Below, in pieces: positions 17,003 to 26,752 of a DNA stretch of 64,000 nt. Positions within the stretch are counted from its first letter, which is position 1; each line of letters begins with the position of its first letter. A program made the position numbers and the translations under genes. Where the stretch lies: NCBI RefSeq assembly GCF_900091315.1, contig NZ_FLSP01000032.1:1-64000 (forward strand), written 5' to 3'. Under the pieces are notes generated by a model. That model did not search any database. It was given only the letters and a program-made list of their open reading frames with translations, and had not been told where the DNA came from. The DNA is from Streptomyces sp. DI166 (GTDB lineage Bacteria; Actinomycetota; Actinomycetes; Streptomycetales; Streptomycetaceae).

Positions 17003-20000
17003 TCAGACCGACTCGACTCCGACCGGTTCGCCCAGGAACGTCCGCCACAGCTCGGCGTACCGGCCGCCGCGGGCGAGCAGTTCGTCGTGCGTGCCGTCCT
17101 CGGCGACCCGGCCGTGGTCCATCACCACCACCCGGTCGGCGCGCGCCGCCGTGGTCAGCCGGTGCGCCACCACCAGCGTCGTACGGCGCCCCGCCAGCCG
17201 GTCGGTGGCCTGGTTGACCTGCGCCTCGGTGGCCAGGTCCAGGGCCGCCGTCGCCTCGTCCAGCAGCAGGATGTCGGGGTCGACCAGCTCGGCGCGGGCC
17301 AGCGCGATCAGCTGGCGCTGACCGGCCGAGAGGTTGCGTCCGCGCTCGGCGACCTCGTGCAGATAGCCGCCCTCCAGCGTGGCGATCATCTCGTGGGCGC
17401 CCACCGCGCGGGCCGCCGCCTCCACCTCGGCGTCCGTCGCCTCGGGCCGCCCGTAGGCGATGGCGTCGCGGACGGTGCCCTGGAAGAGGTACGCCTCCTG
17501 CGGGACGACGCCGAGCCGGTGCCGGTACGCCGTCATGTCCAGGGCGCGCACATCGGTGCCGTCGACGGTGACCCGGCCGGAGGTCGGGTCGTAGAACCGG
17601 GCGACCAGCTTGACCAGGGTGGACTTGCCCGCGCCGGTCTCGCCGACGAACGCGACGGTCTGCCCGGCCGGGATGTGCAGGTCGATGCCGGTGAGGGCCT
17701 CCTCGTCGTCGCCGTAGGCGAAGTGCACGTCCTCGAAGGCGATCTCGCCGCGCAGGGAGAGCACGTCGAGCGGTTCGACCGCGCTCTTGGTGGACGTCGG
17801 CTCCCGCAGCAGCTCCTGGATACGGCCCAGCGACACGGTGGCCTGCTGGTAGCCGTCGAAGACCTGGGAGAGCTGCTGGACCGGGGCGAAGAACAGGTCG
17901 ATGTAGAGCAGGTACGCCACCAGCGCGCCGGTCGTCAGTGTCGCCGCGTCGATCCGGCCCGCGCCCACCACCAGCACCGCCGCCACGGCCGCCGACGACA
18001 GGAACTGCACGAAGGGGAAGTACACCGAGATCAGCCACTGGCCGCGGATACGGGCCTGCCGGTAGCTGTCGCTGCGCTCGGCGAACCGGGCGCCGCCGTC
18101 GCGCTCGCGCCGGAAGGCCTGCACGATCCGCAGCCCCGCGACCGACTCCTGGAGGTCGGCGTTGACCACCGACACGCGTTCGCGGGCCAGTTCGTACGCC
18201 TTCACGCTCGCGCGGCGGAAGAAGAAGGTGGCGAGGATCAGCGGCGGCAGGGTGGCGAAGACGACCAGGGCGAGCTGGAGGTCGATCACCAGCAGGGCGA
18301 CCATGATGCCGAAGAAGGTGACGACCGAGACGAACGCGGTGACCAGGCCGGTCTGCAGGAACGTCGACAGGGCGTCCACGTCCGTGGTCATCCGGGTCAT
18401 GATCCGGCCGGTCAGCTCGCGCTCGTAGTAGTCCAGCCCGAGCCGCTGGAGCTGGGCGAAGATCTTCAGCCGCAGCGCGTACAGCACCCGCTCGCCGGTG
18501 CGCCCGGTCATCAGGGTCTCGCCGATCTGCGCCACCCACTGCACGGTCACCGCGAGCAGCGCCAGCAGGGAGGCCGCCCAGACGGCGCCGAGGGCGAGTT
18601 CGGAGACGCCGCTGTCGATGCCGTGCCGGATCAGCACCGGCAGCAGCAGCCCGGTGCCCGCGTCGACGGCGACCAGGGCGAGGCTGGCCAGCAGGGGCAG
18701 CCCGAAGCCGCGCAGCAGGCGGCGCAGGCCGTAGGAGTCCTCCGGGGTGACCGCGCGGGCCTCGTCGACCTCGGGCGTGTCGGTGGCCGGGGGCAGCGCC
18801 TCGACCTGGGCGAGGAGTTCGGGGGTGGCCGGGGCGCCGTCCATGGCGGTGTCGCGGGGGGTGCGCTCGCCCGCCCACAGGCGGGGCGTGATCCCGCGCT
18901 CGGCGTCGAACTCGGCGTCCAGTTCCGCCCGTACGGAGGTGTCCTCCTCCTCGGGACACGCGGCCGGGGTGTGGCCCGGGGAGACGCCGCCGAGTTCGTC
19001 GGGGTCGGTGAGCAGCCTGCGGTAGAGGGCCGAGCGCTGCTGGAGTTCCTCGTGGGTGCCGAGGTCGGCGAGCCGGCCGCCGTCGAGGACGGCGATGCGG
19101 TCGGCGAGGTTCAGGGTGGAGCGGCGGTGGGCGATGAGGAGGGTCGTGCGGCCCTCCATGACCTGGGCGAGGGCCTGGTGGATCTCGTGCTCCACGCGCG
19201 CGTCGACGGCGGAGGTGGCGTCGTCCAGGACCAGCAGGCGCGGGTCGGTGAGGATGGCGCGGGCCAGGGCGATGCGCTGGCGCTGGCCGCCGGAGAGGGT
19301 CAGGCCGTGCTCGCCGACCTTGGTGTCGTAGCCCTCCGGCAGCTCGGCGATGAAGCGGTCGGCCTGGGCGGCGCGGGCGGCCTGCTCGATCTGCTCCCGG
19401 GTGGCGTCGGGGCGGCCGTAGGCGATGTTGTTGCGGACCGTGTCGGAGAAGAGGAAGGAGTCCTCGGGGACCAGGCCGATCGCGGCGCGCAGGGAGTCCA
19501 GGGTCAGTTCGCGCACGTCGTGGCCGCCGACCAGGACGGCGCCGTGGGTGACGTCGTAGAAGCGGGGCAGCAGCAGGGACACCGTGGACTTGCCGGAGCC
19601 GGAGGAGCCGACGACGGCGAGGGTCTCGCCGGGGCGGATCTCGAAGCTGAGGCCGTCCAGGACGGGGGTGCCGTCGGAGTAGGCGAAGGAGACGTCGTCG
19701 AACTCGACGGTGGCCGGGGCGTCGGCGGGCAGCTCCTTGGTGCCGTCCTTCAGGGAGGGCTCGGTGTCGATCAGCTCCAGGACGCGCTCGGTGCCCGCGC
19801 GGGCCTGCTGGCCGACGGTGAGGACCATGGCGAGCATCCGCACCGGGCCGACGAGCTGGGCGAGGTAGGTGGAGAAGGCGACGAAGGTGCCGAGGGTGAT
19901 GTGCCCGCGCACCGCCAGCCAGCCGCCGAGGGCGAGCATGGCGACCTGGCCGAGCGCGGGGACCGCCTGGAGGGCCGGGGTGTACCTGGCGTTGAACCGG

Positions 20001-20740
20001 ATGGTGCGCAGCCGCCCGGCGAACAGCCGCCTGCTGACGTCCCTGAGCTTGCCGGTCTCCTGCTCCTCCTGCCCGAAGCCCTTGACCACGCGCACGCCGC
20101 TGACCGCGCCGTCGACGACGCCCGCGACGGCGGCGGCCTGCGCCTGCGCGTACCAGGTGGACGGGTGCAGCTTGGCGCGGCTGCGGCGGGCGATCCACCA
20201 CAGGGCGGGCGCGACGGCCAGGGCGACGGCGGTCAGCGGCAGGGACAGCCAGGCCATGACGACGAGGGAGATCGCGAACAGGGCGAAGTTCCCGATGGTC
20301 ATCGGGAGCATGAACAGCAGGCCCTGGATCAACTGGAGGTCGCTGGTGGCACGGCCGACGACCTGCCCGGTGGACAGCTCGTCCTGACGCCGCCCGTCGA
20401 GCCGGGTGATCGTGTCGTACATCGCGGTGCGCAGGTCGTGCTGCACGTCGAGGGCGAGCCGTCCGCCGTAGTAGCGGCGGATGTAGGTGAGCACGTACAC
20501 GGCGACCGCGGAGGCGATCAGCAGACCCGCCCACAGGGCCATGCCGCGGGTCTTGTCGCCGATCACGTCGTCGATGATCACCTTGGTGATCAGCGGGACG
20601 AGTGCCATGACGGCCATGCCCGCGAGGGAGGAGCCGAGGGCGAGGACCACGTCCTTCGGGTAGCGCCAGGCGTACCCCCACAGTCTCCGCGCCCAACCCT
20701 GCCGCGCTGCCACGTCCGGCCCTCCCTTGTGATCGTCCAC
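17003..20740 (-). CDS. Fused two-unit ABC exporter (TMD-NBD-TMD-NBD), asymmetric ATP sites
   Basis: A 1245-residue membrane exporter carrying two complete half-transporters in one chain. Unit 1 has Walker A VVGSSGSGKST, signature LSGGQRQ, and Walker B LLVLDDATSAVD, in which Asp replaces the catalytic Glu. Unit 2 has Walker A FVGETGAGKST, signature LSAGQRQ and Walker B ILLLDEATAALD with intact Glu. Since each ATP site pairs the Walker motifs of one domain with the signature of the other, one site carries both deviations (degenerate) and the other is canonical, as in heterodimeric exporters. H-loops (IAHRR, VAHRL) are present. The substrate is unknown. GTG start. Confidence 0.92.
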   Translation of the reverse strand: MDDHKGGPDVAARQGWARRLWGYAWRYPKDVVLALGSSLAGMAVMALVPLITKVIIDDVIGDKTRGMALWAGLLIASAVAVYVLTYIRRYYGGRLALDVQHDLRTAMYDTITRLDGRRQDELSTGQVVGRATSDLQLIQGLLFMLPMTIGNFALFAISLVVMAWLSLPLTAVALAVAPALWWIARRSRAKLHPSTWYAQAQAAAVAGVVDGAVSGVRVVKGFGQEEQETGKLRDVSRRLFAGRLRTIRFNARYTPALQAVPALGQVAMLALGGWLAVRGHITLGTFVAFSTYLAQLVGPVRMLAMVLTVGQQARAGTERVLELIDTEPSLKDGTKELPADAPATVEFDDVSFAYSDGTPVLDGLSFEIRPGETLAVVGSSGSGKSTVSLLLPRFYDVTHGAVLVGGHDVRELTLDSLRAAIGLVPEDSFLFSDTVRNNIAYGRPDATREQIEQAARAAQADRFIAELPEGYDTKVGEHGLTLSGGQRQRIALARAILTDPRLLVLDDATSAVDARVEHEIHQALAQVMEGRTTLLIAHRRSTLNLADRIAVLDGGRLADLGTHEELQQRSALYRRLLTDPDELGGVSPGHTPAACPEEEDTSVRAELDAEFDAERGITPRLWAGERTPRDTAMDGAPATPELLAQVEALPPATDTPEVDEARAVTPEDSYGLRRLLRGFGLPLLASLALVAVDAGTGLLLPVLIRHGIDSGVSELALGAVWAASLLALLAVTVQWVAQIGETLMTGRTGERVLYALRLKIFAQLQRLGLDYYERELTGRIMTRMTTDVDALSTFLQTGLVTAFVSVVTFFGIMVALLVIDLQLALVVFATLPPLILATFFFRRASVKAYELARERVSVVNADLQESVAGLRIVQAFRRERDGGARFAERSDSYRQARIRGQWLISVYFPFVQFLSSAAVAAVLVVGAGRIDAATLTTGALVAYLLYIDLFFAPVQQLSQVFDGYQQATVSLGRIQELLREPTSTKSAVEPLDVLSLRGEIAFEDVHFAYGDDEEALTGIDLHIPAGQTVAFVGETGAGKSTLVKLVARFYDPTSGRVTVDGTDVRALDMTAYRHRLGVVPQEAYLFQGTVRDAIAYGRPEATDAEVEAAARAVGAHEMIATLEGGYLHEVAERGRNLSAGQRQLIALARAELVDPDILLLDEATAALDLATEAQVNQATDRLAGRRTTLVVAHRLTTAARADRVVVMDHGRVAEDGTHDELLARGGRYAELWRTFLGEPVGVESV

Positions 20741-20862
20741 GAAGGGGCAACGTGCCGGGGGTCGGATTTCATCCCCGGCCCGTCGATATGAGCATCGGCA
20801 CTCAGGGCGTCTGAGTAGCCGGTCGCTGCCGCGGCGGCCGGGGCCCGGCTTTGATCGTCGGC

Positions 20863-21441
20863 ATGGAGAAGCGAACCACGGTCATCACGGTCGCCGGCTG
20901 CGTCGTCCTGGTGGCGCTGCTGGCCCTGACGGCCAAGGCGTGCGAGTCGGCCATGGGCGGGCCGGTGCGGACGACGGAGGACCTGCGCGCGTATGTGCGG
21001 GCCACCACGGACGCGGGCAACACCGTGTACCTGGCCCTCTCCCCGGCCCCGCGGGGCGAGCCCTACCCGGTGCAGGAGGGCAGCTCCTCCTGCGTGGACG
21101 ACTTCGGCTTCGACGACGGCGACGTGACCCGGGACGAGCCGGCCTACTCCTGGCAGCTGGACTTCGCGAGCCCCGCGGACTACCGGGCCGCGATGAAGGC
21201 GCTGGCGGCGCGGTGGCGGAAGGACGGGCGGGAGGTGGAGAAGACCGACACCGGCATCACGACCGTGCTGGACGACGGCATCCGGGTCACCTTCCACCGC
21301 AACCTCTACACCGACGAGCCCGAGCTGCGCGCGACGGGCGAGTGCATGCGCTACCGGGACACCTACGGCGACTCCTACGACTACCGGCTCGACAAGAACG
21401 GCGACGGCACGGTCGACGAGGACGAGCGGCGGGAGTACTGA
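20863..21441 (+). CDS. Membrane-anchored or secreted protein with one EF-hand loop
   Basis: A 192-residue protein with an N-terminal hydrophobic segment (TVITVAGCVVLVALLALTA) that is either a signal or an anchor. The extracellular part has an acidic patch DDFGFDDGDVTRDE. The C-terminus contains DKNGDGTVDEDE, which has Asp, Asn, Asp, Asp and Glu at EF-hand positions 1, 3, 5, 9 and 12, so calcium binding is likely. A TTG at 20851 extends the frame by four codons; ATG 20863 is more credible. Divergent from the ABC exporter. Function unknown. Confidence 0.75.
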   Translation: MEKRTTVITVAGCVVLVALLALTAKACESAMGGPVRTTEDLRAYVRATTDAGNTVYLALSPAPRGEPYPVQEGSSSCVDDFGFDDGDVTRDEPAYSWQLDFASPADYRAAMKALAARWRKDGREVEKTDTGITTVLDDGIRVTFHRNLYTDEPELRATGECMRYRDTYGDSYDYRLDKNGDGTVDEDERREY

Positions 21442-21599
21442 CGGGACCGGAGCTTTGCCAGAGCCGCACCCGGAGGTAATCGGCCGTCGGAGAGGGACTG
21501 GAACTGGAGAGCGCAAGCCCGGGCTCGCGCAACAACCCAGCGCATCACCCCTCCCATCCGCAACGGGGGAGCGGATACGCTGGGCCGTACCTGGGCCGG

Positions 21600-22766
21600 T
21601 CAGACAGGCCAGCTGTTCTCCGGAGTGTCCAGCCAGGCTTGCTGAGTACCGTCTTCGGTCACCGTCAGACCGAAGCGCTCGAAGCCCGGCTGGCCGGCTG
21701 TGTGCCACCAGTCCAGGGCGGCGGCGACTTCGTCCCAGAGTCTGCGCGGCCCGGACTGCCAGACCTGCGCCACGGTCTGGCCGTCACGGAACATGGCGCA
21801 CGCCCACGACCGGTCGCCCAGACCGTAGAACCAGACCGGGCGCGCACCGTCCCGCTTGTCCGCCACCGTGCGGCAGCAGTCGCGGACACGTAGTCCCACC
21901 GCGAACGACGCGACCGCGAACCGGCTGACGCCAAGCAGCTCGGACTCCGTAACCTTCGTGGTCGAGCGGTCGGCGCCGCTCACACCATCGGGTACATATG
22001 CGGCATGTCCGGCGAACGGCAGACGCTGTGCGCGCATCTTCATGAACTCCACCGGCTCCGTGAACCGGCCCACACCCCCGCCGTCGCCGACGCCCACGCA
22101 GACGACGGCGTCCTGGTTGCTGTAGTGAGTCCCCCACGGGGCCACGATGCGTCCGCCGGGCCTGCACTGGGCAAGCCAGGCGGGCGGAATACGGCGCAGT
22201 CCGGCCGTGGCAATGATCCGATCGTACGGCGCACCCGGCTCGTGGCCGTCTGTCCCGTCCTGCACCAGCACCCGAACCGGCAGCCCGGTCCGCGCGAGCC
22301 GCTCACGTGCCTGAACCGCGATCTCCGGGTCGATTTCGATGCTGACCACGTGGCCGGGGCCGAGCCGGTGGGCGAGCAGGGCCGCGTTCCAGCCAGTGCC
22401 CGTGCCTATTTCCAGCACCCGGTGGCCACGCTTTACATCGAGTTCGCGCAGCATCCGGAACACCACGGACGGCATGGACGCCGACGACGTGGGCACACGG
22501 CCGGGGCCGTCGGTCACGCCGTCGTCCCACTGCGTGACAATCGGCACGTCCGCGTCGGCGTACGAGGACCACAGCACGGGGTCGTCACGCTGATCCACCG
22601 TGACAGCGGCACCGGTCTCCATGTCGTGCGGCCATATCCGGTCCGGTAGGAATGCGGACCGGGGCACGGCCGCGAACGCCGGGGCCCAGTCCGATGTCAT
22701 CGCCTTGCGCTCCAGAAGGGAGCGGCCCAACTCGGACCGCCCCTCCTCTGCCCCTGTGAACGTCAT
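21600..22766 (-). CDS. PIMT-like O-methyltransferase of the RiPP-associated type
   Basis: A 388-residue SAM-dependent methyltransferase related to protein-L-isoaspartate methyltransferase. PTSSASMPSVVFRMLREL precedes SAM motif VLEIGTGTGWNAALLA (about residues 118-135), then SIEIDPEIAVQARERL and YDRIIATAGLRRIPPAWL; a 190-residue C-terminal extension follows. Such extended PIMTs occur in graspetide, lanthipeptide and imiditide loci, where they methylate Asp and promote aspartimide formation. ATG 22766 is preferred because it starts 1 nt after the stop of the small upstream gene (TGA-C-ATG). No ATP-grasp, LanB or LanC gene is nearby. Convergent with the EF-hand gene. Confidence 0.82.
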   Translation of the reverse strand: MTFTGAEEGRSELGRSLLERKAMTSDWAPAFAAVPRSAFLPDRIWPHDMETGAAVTVDQRDDPVLWSSYADADVPIVTQWDDGVTDGPGRVPTSSASMPSVVFRMLRELDVKRGHRVLEIGTGTGWNAALLAHRLGPGHVVSIEIDPEIAVQARERLARTGLPVRVLVQDGTDGHEPGAPYDRIIATAGLRRIPPAWLAQCRPGGRIVAPWGTHYSNQDAVVCVGVGDGGGVGRFTEPVEFMKMRAQRLPFAGHAAYVPDGVSGADRSTTKVTESELLGVSRFAVASFAVGLRVRDCCRTVADKRDGARPVWFYGLGDRSWACAMFRDGQTVAQVWQSGPRRLWDEVAAALDWWHTAGQPGFERFGLTVTEDGTQQAWLDTPENSWPV

Positions 22767-22767
22767 G

Positions 22768-22887
22768 TCAGCGTCGGCCGCCATCGGGAGACGGAGGCTC
22801 CGGCGGCACCGGCCACGGCTCGCCGGGCAGACCGTCACCGCCCTCGCCGCCGCCTCCGCCGCTCACGTGGATCGCTTCTGCCCTCAT
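22768..22887 (-). CDS. 39-residue Gly/Pro/Asp-rich peptide, candidate modified-peptide precursor
   Basis: A 39-codon frame with a strong ribosome site (GAGGAGAA, 6 nt before ATG). The product starts MRAEAIHVS, then five glycines, EGGDGLPGEPWPVPPEPPSP and a final DGGRR. It has two Asp-Gly pairs (Asp18-Gly19, Asp35-Gly36), the sequence most prone to aspartimide formation, and one Trp. It ends 1 nt before the PIMT-like methyltransferase start, so the two are translationally coupled. A role as substrate of that enzyme is inferred from position and composition; it is not an FxLD-type or lanthipeptide precursor (no Cys, no FxLD). Confidence 0.55.
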   Translation of the reverse strand: MRAEAIHVSGGGGGEGGDGLPGEPWPVPPEPPSPDGGRR

Positions 22888-22969
22888 CGCTGCTTCTCCT
22901 CGTACATGCCGGACTTCATCGTGCTTTCCGCTGTTCCCGCGCCGGAAGACAACGGCTTGGGACCCGACC

Positions 22970-22988
22970 TTCAGGAGTCCTTCCTGAA
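22970..22988. promoter_or_regulatory. Inverted repeat upstream of the peptide-methyltransferase pair
   Basis: TTCAGGA and TCCTGAA are 7-bp exact inverted copies around GTCCT, 83-101 nt before the peptide start and 64 nt after the end of the DUF6415-like gene. It may be an operator for the peptide operon or a terminator for the preceding gene; there is no T run. Confidence 0.35.
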
Positions 22989-23051
22989 ACCCCTACGGGG
23001 CGGGTGCTTGTGAGTGCGGCCCTGTCCCGAGACGGCCGCCATGGGCCCCGT

Positions 23052-23552
23052 TCACGCCGGGGAGGCGTTGGTGCAGCGGTCATGGATCCGGCCGACGGGC
23101 GTCCAGCCTCCGGCCGGGCTGCCCTGGTCGTCGTACGGCCGAGTCGCGTCTCCCGGCCTGACGGGCTGGTCGCAGACCAGGCACATACGGACTCCGGTGA
23201 GTGTCTCGTAGTGGTCGCACAGCGCCAGCAGTGACCGTCCGAGCCTGCGCGCGTGCGCTGCCGCGTCGGAGGGCAGCGGGCCGGGTACTGCCGTCAGCCT
23301 GCCGCGGGCCCAGGTGACGCAGGCGAGGGCGACGTAGCGGGGCACGTCGTCGGCGGGAAGCCTCCGGGCCGCCTCCTCGACCTCGGGGATGAGCACTGAC
23401 ATGTGGCTGCGCAGCAGCCCGCTCAGCGTGTCCAGCCTCGCCCCGTCGATAGGGGTCGCCTCGGGTGGCAGCACCTCGGCAACGCTCGCACGGATCGCCG
23501 CGACGTCCACTGCGGGCCCTCTGGTGCTCGTACGGCTTTCGGCAGAGGTCAT
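23052..23552 (-). CDS. DUF6415-like protein, natural-product-locus associated
   Basis: A 166-residue cytoplasmic, mainly helical protein. Its C-terminal third contains MCLVCDQPV and RIHDRC, a Cys-x2-Cys plus His/Cys arrangement that could bind zinc. I associate it with the DUF6415 group described as natural product biosynthesis proteins; no biochemical role is known to me. ATG 23552 overlaps the stop of the small upstream gene as ATGA. It lies between the peptide-methyltransferase pair and the divergent XRE regulator, which suggests one functional locus. Confidence 0.65.
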   Translation of the reverse strand: MTSAESRTSTRGPAVDVAAIRASVAEVLPPEATPIDGARLDTLSGLLRSHMSVLIPEVEEAARRLPADDVPRYVALACVTWARGRLTAVPGPLPSDAAAHARRLGRSLLALCDHYETLTGVRMCLVCDQPVRPGDATRPYDDQGSPAGGWTPVGRIHDRCTNASPA

Positions 23553-23665
23553 GACTCTGCCTCGCTGTCCTTCGCAGTGAGGAGGCCACCGACCACGACC
23601 GTGGGGTGCGCGGAGGCGAGCCGGCCCGCGATGTTCGAAGCGGTGTCACGCAGTGGGGTTCTCAT
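23549..23665 (-). CDS. 38-residue small protein coupled to the DUF6415-like gene
   Basis: A 38-codon frame encoding MRTPLRDTASNIAGRLASAH, then PTVVVGGLLTAKDSEAES. Its stop overlaps the ATG of the next gene by 4 nt (ATGA), the usual coupling arrangement. It is predicted amphipathic with a short hydrophobic TVVVGGLL run. The ribosome site is weak (GAG about 8 nt upstream). I recognise no family. It is first in the leftward transcript facing the XRE regulator, so it could be a small regulatory partner or a conserved leader; both are speculation. Confidence 0.45.
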   Translation of the reverse strand: MRTPLRDTASNIAGRLASAHPTVVVGGLLTAKDSEAES

Positions 23666-23719
23666 AGGCACTCGGCCGTCCACAGCAGCACCTTCCCTAT
23701 ACGCTCAGTTGCTGGATGA

Positions 23720-23734
23720 CTACCTTCACGGTAG
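23720..23734. promoter_or_regulatory. Small inverted repeat in the divergent XRE/DUF6415 promoter
   Basis: CTACC-TTCAC-GGTAG lies 76 nt before the XRE start and 55 nt before the 38-codon gene. Its position between divergent genes fits an operator, but the arms are only 5 bp. Confidence 0.3.
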
Positions 23735-23809
23735 GAAGCGACCATCACGGCCTGAAGTGACCACCGGTACAGGTAAGGCAGTGGCAGGCCACGGGGATTG
23801 GGTGGATTC

Positions 23810-24841
23810 ATGCCCTCGAACTCACGCGAAACCCTGCCCTGCAGTCGGGGTTCGGCGTCACGGCCCCGTGTCGGGGTCATCACCGGGTACGTATTCCGGA
23901 TCATTCGGGAACAGCTCGGCTGCACACAGGAGTCCGCCGCCGAACGGCTCGCCGTGTCGCCGGACACGGTCGCGGGCTGGGAGTCCGGCAGGCGGCCCCT
24001 CACGGCAATCCCCGTCGGACAGATGCTCGCGCTGCGGCACCGGCTGATGCAGATGGGGACCGCTCCGAAGCTGCTTCAGGCGCTGGAGCGCGCCATGGAG
24101 GCAGACGTGCTCCTGGCCAGTGCCCTGGACGACGAAACGCCCGTGGACCAGAGCCCTCTGGGCGCCTGGGTCATGCAGCGGGACCTGATCGAGGTGCTGG
24201 CCTGGCCGCTCAACGGCGTGCCCCCGCAGCCCGTACGTGCGTTGCCCGCACCGCCCCTGCCCCGCCGCGGCCCAGTTCCGTCGGCCCCCACGCTCACCGC
24301 GTCCGACCTGCGCCGATTCTTCGAGCGGATGCGGGACGCGGCAGAACAAGCCCCCCACGAAGACCAGTTCCTGTTACGCCGTCAAGCCCTGTATCTGTCC
24401 GGCTACGACGACCAGTCAGACACTGCGGACTGGCTGGCCCACCAGCAGGCCACAGAACGACCGAGAAACCGGCTGATGGACTGGCTCAATTCGCGATCCG
24501 TGGCGGCCGTGGCTGCCCGGCAGGGCGACCGGGACCGGATGAACCACTTCATCGACACCGCGCTCGTCGACGACGAGGCCGGTGAGGCAGCGAACTTGAA
24601 CTACTGGGCGTACTGGGTCGGCGAGAACGCTCACCTCGAACTGTCCGACGGCTTCCTCGCTTCCCGTAGGCCTGGGCCTTGGCCCGGGGACAGGCTGCTC
24701 CTGCACCTGGCCCACGGTCTCGCGCCCGAGCACGGGTACGTGGACCTGAACATCCACTCCCTGTGGTCTTTGCTCGCCGTCCGCCCCACCTTCTCAAGTC
24801 CCGTGCTGTCGGCCGGGCCCTACGCGATCGGCTTCCCGTGA
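23810..24841 (+). CDS. XRE-type regulator with a TTA codon and disrupted C-terminus
   Basis: As read, a 343-residue protein. Residues 20-60 are a helix-turn-helix of the XRE type ([20 protein letters not shown], then [13 protein letters not shown]), followed by a helical sensor-like region of the kind found in Streptomyces regulators lacking enzymatic motifs. Leu189 is encoded by TTA (24374-24376), so translation should depend on the bldA tRNA. The last 22 residues read as an out-of-family tail (see the next feature). It is divergent from the DUF6415-like gene and 94 nt before the HD gene. ATG 23810 is used; TTG 23798 is an alternative. Confidence 0.75.
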
Positions 24842-24923
24842 TGTTGGATAGCCCGGGGCTGTTACTCGTGCTCGCCGTGAGTTGGGCAGCATCACCTACG
24901 CGATCCGCCTTGCCGAGGCGTGA
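24781..24923 (+). pseudogene. Displaced C-terminal coding remnant of the XRE gene (two frame changes)
   Basis: After SLLAVRP the annotated frame ends in an unrelated tail. The next frame reads [18 protein letters not shown] and continues to DSPGLL. The third frame then reads TRARRELGSITYAIRLAEA and stops at 24921-24923, only 12 nt before the HD gene. Joining the three pieces needs one added base near the C run at 24784-24787 and one near 24862, and gives a coherent helical C-terminus. Either the gene is truncated or the assembly lost two bases. Confidence 0.55.
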
Positions 24924-24935
24924 GAGGAGACCGGC

Positions 24936-25514
24936 GTGACCGAGGGCCTGGACCAGGTGGCGCGATTCCTGTTCGAAGCGGGGACGCTGAAGCAGTCGAA
25001 GCGGACCGGGTGGTGGATGGCCGGTGTGCGCGACCCGGAGAGCGTCGCCGAGCACTCCTGGCGGACCTCGCTGATCGCGTCCGTGATCGCCAAGCTGGAG
25101 GGCGCCGATCCAGCACGCGCGGCGTTCCTGGCGGTGTGGCACGACTCGCAGGAGACGCGCACCGGCGACATCAACCACCTCGCGAAGAAGTACGCCGACG
25201 AGCCTGATCCACAGGCCGTCACTACGGACCAGGTCTCGGGCATGCCGGAGGTACTCGCCTCGACGGTGCGGGACCTGGTCGCGGAGTACGAGGCAAGGGA
25301 ATCGGCCGAGGCGATCTGCGCGCGGGACGCCGACAAGCTGGAGTGCATGCTCCAGGGCATCGAGTACAAGGCGCAGGGCTACGAGCTCGCACAGCGGTGG
25401 ATCGACAACAGCCGCGGCCGTCTGGTGACGAAGACGGCGAACGCGCTCGCCGACCAGTTGCTGGCCACGCACCCGCTGGACTGGCTGCGCAGCACGCTCG
25501 GCGAACAGCGCTGA
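24936..25514 (+). CDS. HD-domain phosphohydrolase (YfbR-like)
   Basis: A 192-residue HD-superfamily hydrolase. Metal ligands are His in ESVAEHSWRTS near residue 35, the His-Asp pair in AVWHDSQETRTGDI near residue 70, and the late Asp in ARDADKLECM near residue 130. Small members of this group dephosphorylate deoxynucleoside 5'-monophosphates. GTG 24936 has GAGGAGA upstream. It begins 12 nt after the displaced end of the XRE frame, so the two are probably one operon. Why an HD nucleotidase accompanies this locus is unknown. Confidence 0.82.
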   Translation: MTEGLDQVARFLFEAGTLKQSKRTGWWMAGVRDPESVAEHSWRTSLIASVIAKLEGADPARAAFLAVWHDSQETRTGDINHLAKKYADEPDPQAVTTDQVSGMPEVLASTVRDLVAEYEARESAEAICARDADKLECMLQGIEYKAQGYELAQRWIDNSRGRLVTKTANALADQLLATHPLDWLRSTLGEQR

Positions 25515-25688
25515 ACCTGCCCCCCGGTCTGGGGAGCGGGCGTTCGGCGAACGGGCATGGTGCAGTCGGGTGTTGGCCGCCAGCAAGGTTGTTGCCGCCG
25601 GTGCGGTGGCGAAGGCGGTTCGTCCTCGCCATCGCCGCATGCCCGTCACCGTAGGGCGGGCGGGTGACGGGCGGGAGACCGCAGGGCG

Positions 25689-26528
25689 TCAACTCGCGTC
25701 GAGATCGCGGTGGATGACCTTGGCGACGCCCTGGATGGTGGTGATGCCGTAGTTCATCGTGCTGTTGCCGTGGGTCAGCACGGTCATCACGTAGTCGTGC
25801 CCGCCGCCCTTGAAGGTGCCGACGCTGTGCACCCGCCAGCCGTTGGTGGCCCGCTGCAGCCAGCCGTTCTTGACGTGCACGAGGACGTCGGAGGGCGCGC
25901 CGTAGGGGGTTCCCCAGCGCTGGGAGGAGACCACCTTGCCCATCAGCTGGCGCACGTACTTGCGGGAGGCGTCGGTGAGCACCGTGTTCTTCTCGATGAG
26001 CAGCTTCATCAGCTTCTGCTCGTCGGTGACGGTGATCTGGGTCAGGCCCCAGTAGCCGTTGGCACCCGGCTTGGTCTGGGTCATACCGGCCGCGGTGAGG
26101 AACTTCTTCACCTTGGTGACGCCGAGCTGGTTCCACAGGGTGGTGGTCGAGGCGTTGTCCGACTTGGTGATCATGGCCGTGGCGAGGGACTTCTCCCGGC
26201 TGGTGAGGGAGCGTCCGGTCTTCTGCGCGTCCCACAGCAGGGTGGCGAGGACGGTGACCTTGACCACGCTGGCCGAGTCGTAGGCGGTCGAGGCGCGCAG
26301 GGTGCACGTGGTCCTGGTGGACCGGTCGTAGAGACCGACCGCGATGGTGCCCTTGCGGTTGGCGAGCGCGGCGGTGATGTCCTTCTTCAGCTTCGTGGCG
26401 AGTCCGGCGTTGGCGGACGTGCAGCTGACGGTGGGTGTCGCGGCGCTCGCGGGGGTGACCGCGGCCACGGAGGCGAGCAGCACGCCGCCCGCGACCCATC
26501 GGGCCCGTCTGGATATGCGGTGAGTCAT
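25689..26528 (-). CDS. Secreted serine beta-lactamase-like protein
   Basis: A 279-residue exported protein of the class A beta-lactamase / penicillin-recognising fold. The signal peptide (RRARWVAGGVLLASVAAVTP) is cleaved near ASA-ATP. The active-site SxxK appears as SASVVKVTVLATLL, SDN as TKSDNASTTTLW, and the KTG-like triad as HVKNGW. There is no obvious class A Glu166 loop signature, so it may be a peptidoglycan-directed hydrolase rather than a resistance enzyme. ATG 26528 is preferred; the longer frame to 26612 adds residues before the signal. Divergent from the endonuclease gene with 224 nt between. Confidence 0.83.
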   Translation of the reverse strand: MTHRISRRARWVAGGVLLASVAAVTPASAATPTVSCTSANAGLATKLKKDITAALANRKGTIAVGLYDRSTRTTCTLRASTAYDSASVVKVTVLATLLWDAQKTGRSLTSREKSLATAMITKSDNASTTTLWNQLGVTKVKKFLTAAGMTQTKPGANGYWGLTQITVTDEQKLMKLLIEKNTVLTDASRKYVRQLMGKVVSSQRWGTPYGAPSDVLVHVKNGWLQRATNGWRVHSVGTFKGGGHDYVMTVLTHGNSTMNYGITTIQGVAKVIHRDLDAS

Positions 26529-26752
26529 GCCCGGTTGACCCGCGGACGCCGGAAGCGGTTGTAGGCGTTGGGGAAGGGTTGTACAAGCCGTTATCGCGGC
26601 GTGCCGTTTCACGTGTCAACTCGCGGGGACAACACCCGATTTGCCGTTTCCGGTCACTCAATCGACACGCGATGTCCATTTACAGCCCCTCATGTGCATG
26701 TCACGCTCACTGGTGCCGCCTTCAATCAACCCGCGTAGATGGGACTCCCCAC

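Follow-up and report, generated by a model that had tools for sequence, protein, structure and literature searches.

A probable type I pamtide cassette at an XRE-HD slot in Streptomyces sp. DI166

Introduction

What is the substrate of a methyltransferase that resembles a protein-repair enzyme but is encoded one base behind a peptide of 39 residues? The question is raised by a stretch of 64,000 nucleotides from Streptomyces sp. DI166 (contig NZ_FLSP01000032.1, positions 1 to 64,000), referred to below as the window. A first-pass annotation, made from the letters alone, had compared the pair to the imiditides, in which one methyltransferase makes an aspartimide, had suspected an acquired specialised-metabolite cassette with developmental (bldA) control, and had proposed a search for co-occurrence of the peptide and the enzyme across Streptomyces.

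Type I pamtides are two-gene units in which a precursor of ~45 aa, rich in Gly, Pro and Asp, is encoded with a homologue of protein isoaspartyl methyltransferase (PIMT), the PIMT-type peptide aspartyl O-methyltransferase, or PAMT (PMC10787088); 1,414 of them have been counted (PMC13001092). When the SpaA/SpaM pair of S. sparsogenes was tested, the mass changes were +14, then -18, then 0 Da (PMC10787088). A WxxxGxP motif has been reported for the PIMTs of lasso peptide, graspetide and imiditide pathways, and the PIMT of T. maritima also has a similar C-terminal domain (PMC13001092).

From the analysis described here, we consider it highly likely that the window carries a translationally coupled pamtide cassette, controlled by an XRE-family regulator, lying in an exchangeable slot beside an XRE-HD gene pair and gained as an island.

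Results

A conserved peptide coupled to a PIMT-type methyltransferase

The features of the block are as follows.

21600-22766, minus strand: methyltransferase (PAMT), 388 aa, with its ATG at 22766
22768-22887, minus strand: putative precursor peptide gene, 39 aa, MRAEAIHVSGGGGGEGGDGLPGEPWPVPPEPPSPDGGRR, from its translation and homologous open reading frames (ORFs)
23052-23552, minus strand: DUF6415 protein, 166 aa (PF19979, E=4e-28)
23549-23665, minus strand: 38-codon frame, with an ATGA overlap with the DUF6415 gene
23670-23809, unstranded: divergent promoter/operator-like region between the XRE gene and the cassette, from an alignment of 26 loci
23810-24841, plus strand: XRE-family regulator, 343 aa as read (PF01381, HTH_3, E=8e-07)
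24936-25514, plus strand: HD-domain phosphohydrolase (HD_3; YfbR-like; PF13023, E=1e-28), encoded by the gene paired with XRE
20851-21441, plus strand: EF-hand-like ORF within the island
20730-25635: putative island, flanked by genes for an ABC transporter (17003-20740) and a beta-lactamase-like protein (25689-26612)

The stop codon of the peptide gene lies one base from the start codon of the methyltransferase gene (TGA-C-ATG), and a Shine-Dalgarno-like sequence, aggagaagcag, precedes the peptide ATG. The first-pass annotation had placed the genes and their coupling correctly, its DUF6415-like and HD hydrolase identities agree with the family matches listed above, and, as it had also said, no ATP-grasp, LanB/C, YcaO, lasso or radical-SAM gene was found among the ORFs or by family profile scans of the block.

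The peptide MRAEAIHVSGGGGGEGGDGLPGEPWPVPPEPPSPDGGRR contains 11 Gly and 8 Pro in its 39 residues. When 80 loci of named Streptomyces and Actinacidiphila were gathered by similarity of the enzyme alone, without regard to the peptide, 72 of them had a small ORF with the peptide motif immediately ahead of the methyltransferase homologue, a result that answers the proposed co-occurrence search in favour of the pair. The motif common to these 72 loci and the window is G-D-x-[LHV]-P-G-[EQT]-P-[WY]...P-[ST]-P-D-G. Comparison of a 22-codon core with that of 13 close relatives gave 16 differences at first, 32 at second and 118 at third codon positions, and this bias to third positions argues that the frame is translated. 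By this comparative evidence the 39-residue frame reads as a real gene, far beyond chance.

The aspartate of the SPDG sequence (Asp35) is present in 72 of the 73 peptides and is Asn in the remaining one, and the residue after it is Gly in 72 of 73. Asp18 is kept in 70 of 73, in four of which the next residue is Pro, and an Asp followed by Pro cannot form an aspartimide. Because Gly follows Asp35 in nearly all peptides, whereas Asp18 sometimes precedes Pro, Asp35 is probably the target, as predicted from the alignment, and Asp18 is disfavoured. Two precursors from S. lichenis (L027 and L115; such labels are our own for loci) have SPNG, with Asn at the predicted target, where a succinimide could form without an enzyme. 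In S. specialis, two identical pamtide copies (L087 and L088) lie ~17 kb apart in opposite orientation on one contig.

The methyltransferase matches the PCMT family (PF01135, E=2e-30), and its AlphaFold2 model (pLDDT 92, pTM 0.90) has its best PDB match in 1DL5, the PIMT of T. maritima, with 383 alignment columns that include the C-terminal domain, while ordinary PIMTs match it over only ~240 columns. The WxxxGxP motif is present as WWHTAGQP (W354-P360), and neither W354 nor P360 varies across two alignments, of 17 and of 48 sequences. The block thus has three features of type I pamtides, namely a PIMT homologue that carries a C-terminal extension of >100 aa and is the only modifying enzyme, the WxxxGxP motif, and a neighbouring precursor rich in Gly and Pro with a conserved Asp near Pro/Gly. 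Since the precursor is conserved and a RiPP-type PIMT (RiPP, ribosomally synthesised and post-translationally modified peptide) is the only modifying enzyme, the pair is very probably a type I pamtide (imiditide), and the conserved precursor, the RiPP-type C-terminal domain and WxxxGxP all lend support to the imiditide comparison made earlier. The aspartimide chemistry is a prediction, as is the label of specialised metabolite.

A site that is empty in relatives

Six relatives were picked by means of the flanking beta-lactamase gene. All six have the same ABC-transporter and beta-lactamase flanks with no such cassette between them, and five hold one unrelated secreted-protein gene in that gap. 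Homology of the relatives to the window ends at ~20.73 kb and resumes at ~25.64 kb. From these empty sites, the block (~20.73-25.63 kb) appears to be an island gained here, in support of the cassette having been acquired, as was first suspected. No tRNA genes that might serve as integration sites were found in the window; elsewhere, tRNA genes accompany 8 of 35 loci, and their differing kinds indicate that there is no single attachment site. The EF-hand-like ORF at one end of the island is rare: among the 149 other genomes searched, only two have a homologue of it (40-42%).

The XRE-HD pair recurs beside differing RiPP cassettes

Homologues of XRE and HD were sought in 247 genomes without reference to the cassette, and their loci were retrieved; gene calls in relatives came from a simple codon-position script, and very small ORFs may be missed. 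The XRE gene adjoins HD in 45 loci, 42 of which were not selected through the enzyme. A PAMT lies within 6 kb in 9 of these 42 loci, versus ~0.1 expected from the genome-average density of such enzymes (42 x 3.35 x 6 kb / 8.6 Mb) rather than from matched control regulators.

The cargo of the slot differs among strains. In four loci (L185, L191, L195, L196) it combines a PAMT and another pamtide-like peptide, DKPWTPP..PSPDGS, and a fifth locus (L190) is assigned to this kind by its PAMT. Graspetide genes (TIGR04186/04187) and a PAMT occupy the slot in L183 and L215, and by homology in L179 and L182. In two others, L187 (4896-5860) and L192 (4117-5437), a radical-SAM enzyme is accompanied by a GNAT protein and by a Cys-containing peptide of 66-68 aa that ends KCSCAAGDDNPH; no curated family was matched above cut-off at these loci. 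A lasso cluster fills the slot of L209 (5016-7273), with the macrolactam cyclase NF033561 above cut-off, a PqqD-like protein and a 44-aa ORF. Finally, a repeat peptide stands beside a weak match to an aKG-HExxH hydroxylase in L213 and its relative L216; these peptides (L213 3722-3871, L216 4014-4169) have 50-52 aa with a repeated LTRRLDHSVPDG-like unit, lie with a TPR protein, and could be a multi-core RiPP. An ORF of L209 that had been a candidate PAMT is a long-branch PIMT-like protein of the lasso cluster, and was left out of the nine PAMT loci.

On the PAMT tree, a quick tree with some long branches, the label of XRE-HD association (which includes L209) needs 9 changes, at least 7 of them forced by well-supported branches. 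The neighbourhood in S. cupreus (L048) has orthologues of the window's HD (93%), XRE (82%) and DUF6415 (70%) genes, and the two loci also have a further gene family, f3, in common. Their PAMTs nevertheless belong to different clades, which indicates an exchange of the cassette while the surrounding framework stayed in place. Across the loci, f3 was found in 9, including S. cupreus and other XRE-HD loci, and a DUF6415 gene is the upstream neighbour of the peptide gene in most of the loci that belong to the window enzyme's clade (L039, L040, L042-L045, L048, L049). XRE and HD form a recurrent module, and the RiPP cassette in its divergent slot differs by strain. This seems to be new; we found no mention of the pair in the literature examined, which is not proof of absence.

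The region between XRE and the cassette contains blocks (CTAnGCT, ACGGTAG, TGAAGTGACCg..GTACnGGT) that are conserved in the 26-locus alignment across loci with differing cassettes; a search for repeats in this region gave only short two-copy matches. The XRE gene of the window has one TTA codon, at codon 189. Within the family, 16 of 42 XRE genes contain TTA codons, versus 8 of 377 other genes (2%), with none in 59 HD genes or 12 PAMT genes. This enrichment would fit bldA gating exerted via the XRE protein, and it strengthens the earlier hint of bldA control. It could alternatively reflect low codon adaptation of acquired genes, though cargo genes have only 4%. Overall, we think it fairly likely from these associations that XRE-HD governs the cassette.

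A different regulator is found at other pamtides. In 43 of the 80 pamtide loci (L039-L118), another XRE-like regulator lies 0.5-2.6 kb upstream of the PAMT, which we take to be of the XRE/DUF5753 type, often with DUF397- or DUF6879-like partners. It is a second regulatory context of pamtides. A recurrent small protein is encoded just upstream of the peptide in such loci. DUF397/DUF5753 pairs have been reported near group 11 and 13 graspetides (PMC13097080), and XRE-DUF397 pairs are linked to specialised metabolism (PMC10364602, PMC6262351). The latter resemble the pair described here in that an XRE protein has a fixed small partner; unlike them, the window XRE has no DUF5753 match, only its HTH being above cut-off, and its partner is HD_3 rather than DUF397.

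The same distribution would arise if XRE-HD pairs and RiPP cassettes merely shared hypervariable islands, with no functional link between them. The flanks do vary among loci, some of which lie near different tRNA genes, and many XRE-HD slots are without a recognisable RiPP enzyme. However, the divergent arrangement is constant, the intergenic sequence is conserved whichever cassette is present, several independent associations appear on the PAMT tree, and the TTA enrichment is confined to XRE. We therefore regard co-residence without a link as unlikely, while granting it more room than any other alternative considered here. The stronger proposal, that XRE-HD is a class-independent, bldA-gated RiPP chassis into whose slot unrelated cassettes are loaded again and again (two pamtide lineages, graspetides, a lasso peptide, radical-SAM products and possibly aKG-HExxH-hydroxylated peptides), could in our judgement equally well hold or fail.

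State of the locus in the source strain

Three points weigh against an intact, XRE-controlled pamtide cassette in this strain. First, the case for XRE control of the cassette is one of association only. Second, the precursor ends GGRR, without the extension of most relatives (GDGTHRK or GGPGVPNPPK), many of which end GDGTHRK or NPPK; tails in the window's subclade extend 6-8 residues after SPDG, and that of the window only three, whereas a sister precursor has the longer GGPKAIG. Recognition of type I pamtide precursors depends on charged residues at their N- and C-terminal ends. Since substitution of the tail abolished SpaM activity (PMC13001092), activity of the window pair is not guaranteed. 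Third, the XRE gene is broken and f3 deleted, which could mean decay of the locus or else errors in the assembly. In alignment, the window XRE frame leaves all ten orthologues after about residue 328; intact orthologues run ~45 residues further, and the window encodes those residues (including SITYAIRLAEA) in the other two frames. These are either real frameshifts or errors of the source assembly, a draft of 242 contigs. Of the TTA-containing divergent XRE gene first described, the codon and the orientation are thus borne out, and an intact regulator in this assembly is not. Where the window has the 38-codon frame, S. cupreus has the 169-codon f3 gene, from which DNA alignment with L048 indicates the in-frame loss of 131 codons. 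The frame, which had been presented as a gene coupled to DUF6415, is evidently the remnant of an in-frame deletion in a 169-aa f3 gene.

The broken XRE, the shortened f3 and the short precursor tail could together mean that a former pamtide cassette is now decaying and silent in the source strain. The peptide and enzyme frames are intact and retain the motif residues, f3 is missing from many loci and is hence dispensable, and the XRE frameshifts could lie in the assembly, so that decay appears rather improbable, slightly more so than co-residence in hypervariable islands.

Class of the methyltransferase

Of 247 Streptomyces genomes, 70 have homologues of the enzyme at E<=1e-60. A repair-type PIMT for damaged cellular proteins, with the small ORF incidental, would account for the PCMT domain and for the C-terminal domain that T. 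maritima PIMT also has, but it is very improbable given the small ORF kept in sequence and position at 72 of 80 loci, the recurrence of the peptide as DKPWTPP..PSPDGS beside a distinct PAMT lineage, a copy number of TIGR04188-type enzymes from 0 to 14 per genome (mean 3.35), unlike a housekeeping gene, and the empty site in six relatives. Equally improbable is an orphan graspetide methyltransferase whose graspetide substrate is encoded at another site of the genome: the top NCBIfam match is TIGR04188, a homologue above its cut-off is present on another contig, and graspetide cassettes occupy the XRE-HD slot of other strains, but the window enzyme scores 291.8 bits, below the curated cut-off of 380, is directly coupled to its own conserved peptide, and clades with peptide-coupled enzymes, apart from L001 and from L183 of the graspetide slot.

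Two relatives of this enzyme were noted in the source genome. On contig C10 (L003) a second PAMT homologue lies at 18544-19617, with a DUF6415 gene (20747-21211), 65% identical to that of the window, ~1.1 kb upstream, so that the DUF6415-PAMT association recurs within the genome. On contig C19 (21445-22521; L001) the TIGR04188 methyltransferase above cut-off marks a probable graspetide (graspimiditide) locus. The only PADLOC match, of the methyltransferase core to mads_2 (78.9 bits), was discarded as generic.

Among known systems, a pamtide or imiditide assignment places the pair in a class already described, to which it adds a short-tailed subclade with a DUF6415 gene upstream in most members. 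With SpaA-SpaM and NmaA-NmaM (PMC10787088, PMC13001092) it shares a Gly/Pro-rich precursor of ~40-50 aa, a PIMT with the C-terminal domain and WxxxGxP, a conserved Asp next to Pro/Gly, a single modifying enzyme and a Streptomyces host; unlike them, the window precursor has 39 aa with the truncated GGRR tail, and DUF6415 lies upstream. We found no mention of placement in an XRE-HD slot in the pamtide literature examined. The S. sparsogenes genome has three peptide-enzyme pairs, two of which share the window motif. Graspimiditides (group 13 graspetides, TIGR04186/04187/04188; PMC13097080) have a methyltransferase of a homologous family and use the XRE-HD slot elsewhere, but the window block lacks both the ATP-grasp TIGR04187 and the TIGR04186 precursor. 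The window peptide has no Cys, and so lacks the two CxxCxGxG motifs of cysimiditides (type II pamtides). The T. maritima PIMT, the nearest solved fold across both domains, is without a known dedicated peptide substrate.

Discussion

In the pathway that we favour, peptide and methyltransferase would be translated in a coupled fashion, and the enzyme would use S-adenosylmethionine to methylate one Asp on the linear peptide, most likely Asp35 in SPDG. Attack of the Gly36 amide on the methyl ester would give the aspartimide (+14, then -18 Da), which would partly hydrolyse to isoaspartate. Control of the divergent cassette would fall to the XRE protein, constantly paired with the HD hydrolase and acting at the conserved intergenic sequence, and the TTA codon would make XRE synthesis dependent on the bldA tRNA. 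The HD and DUF6415 proteins may have roles as well. On a longer time scale, the XRE-HD module would exchange RiPP cassettes in its divergent slot, the whole unit having been gained as an island.

For pamtides, the window pair would single out Asp35 as the one target residue. What specialists may find unexpected in the locus is the XRE-HD slot. Recurrence of the pair beside chemically unrelated RiPP cassettes would provide a class-independent marker for RiPP mining, and the TTA-containing XRE gene may offer a handle on the timing of RiPP cluster activation, including that of pamtides. If the XRE-HD pair is indeed a RiPP chassis, it would be usable as a beacon for undiscovered RiPP classes.

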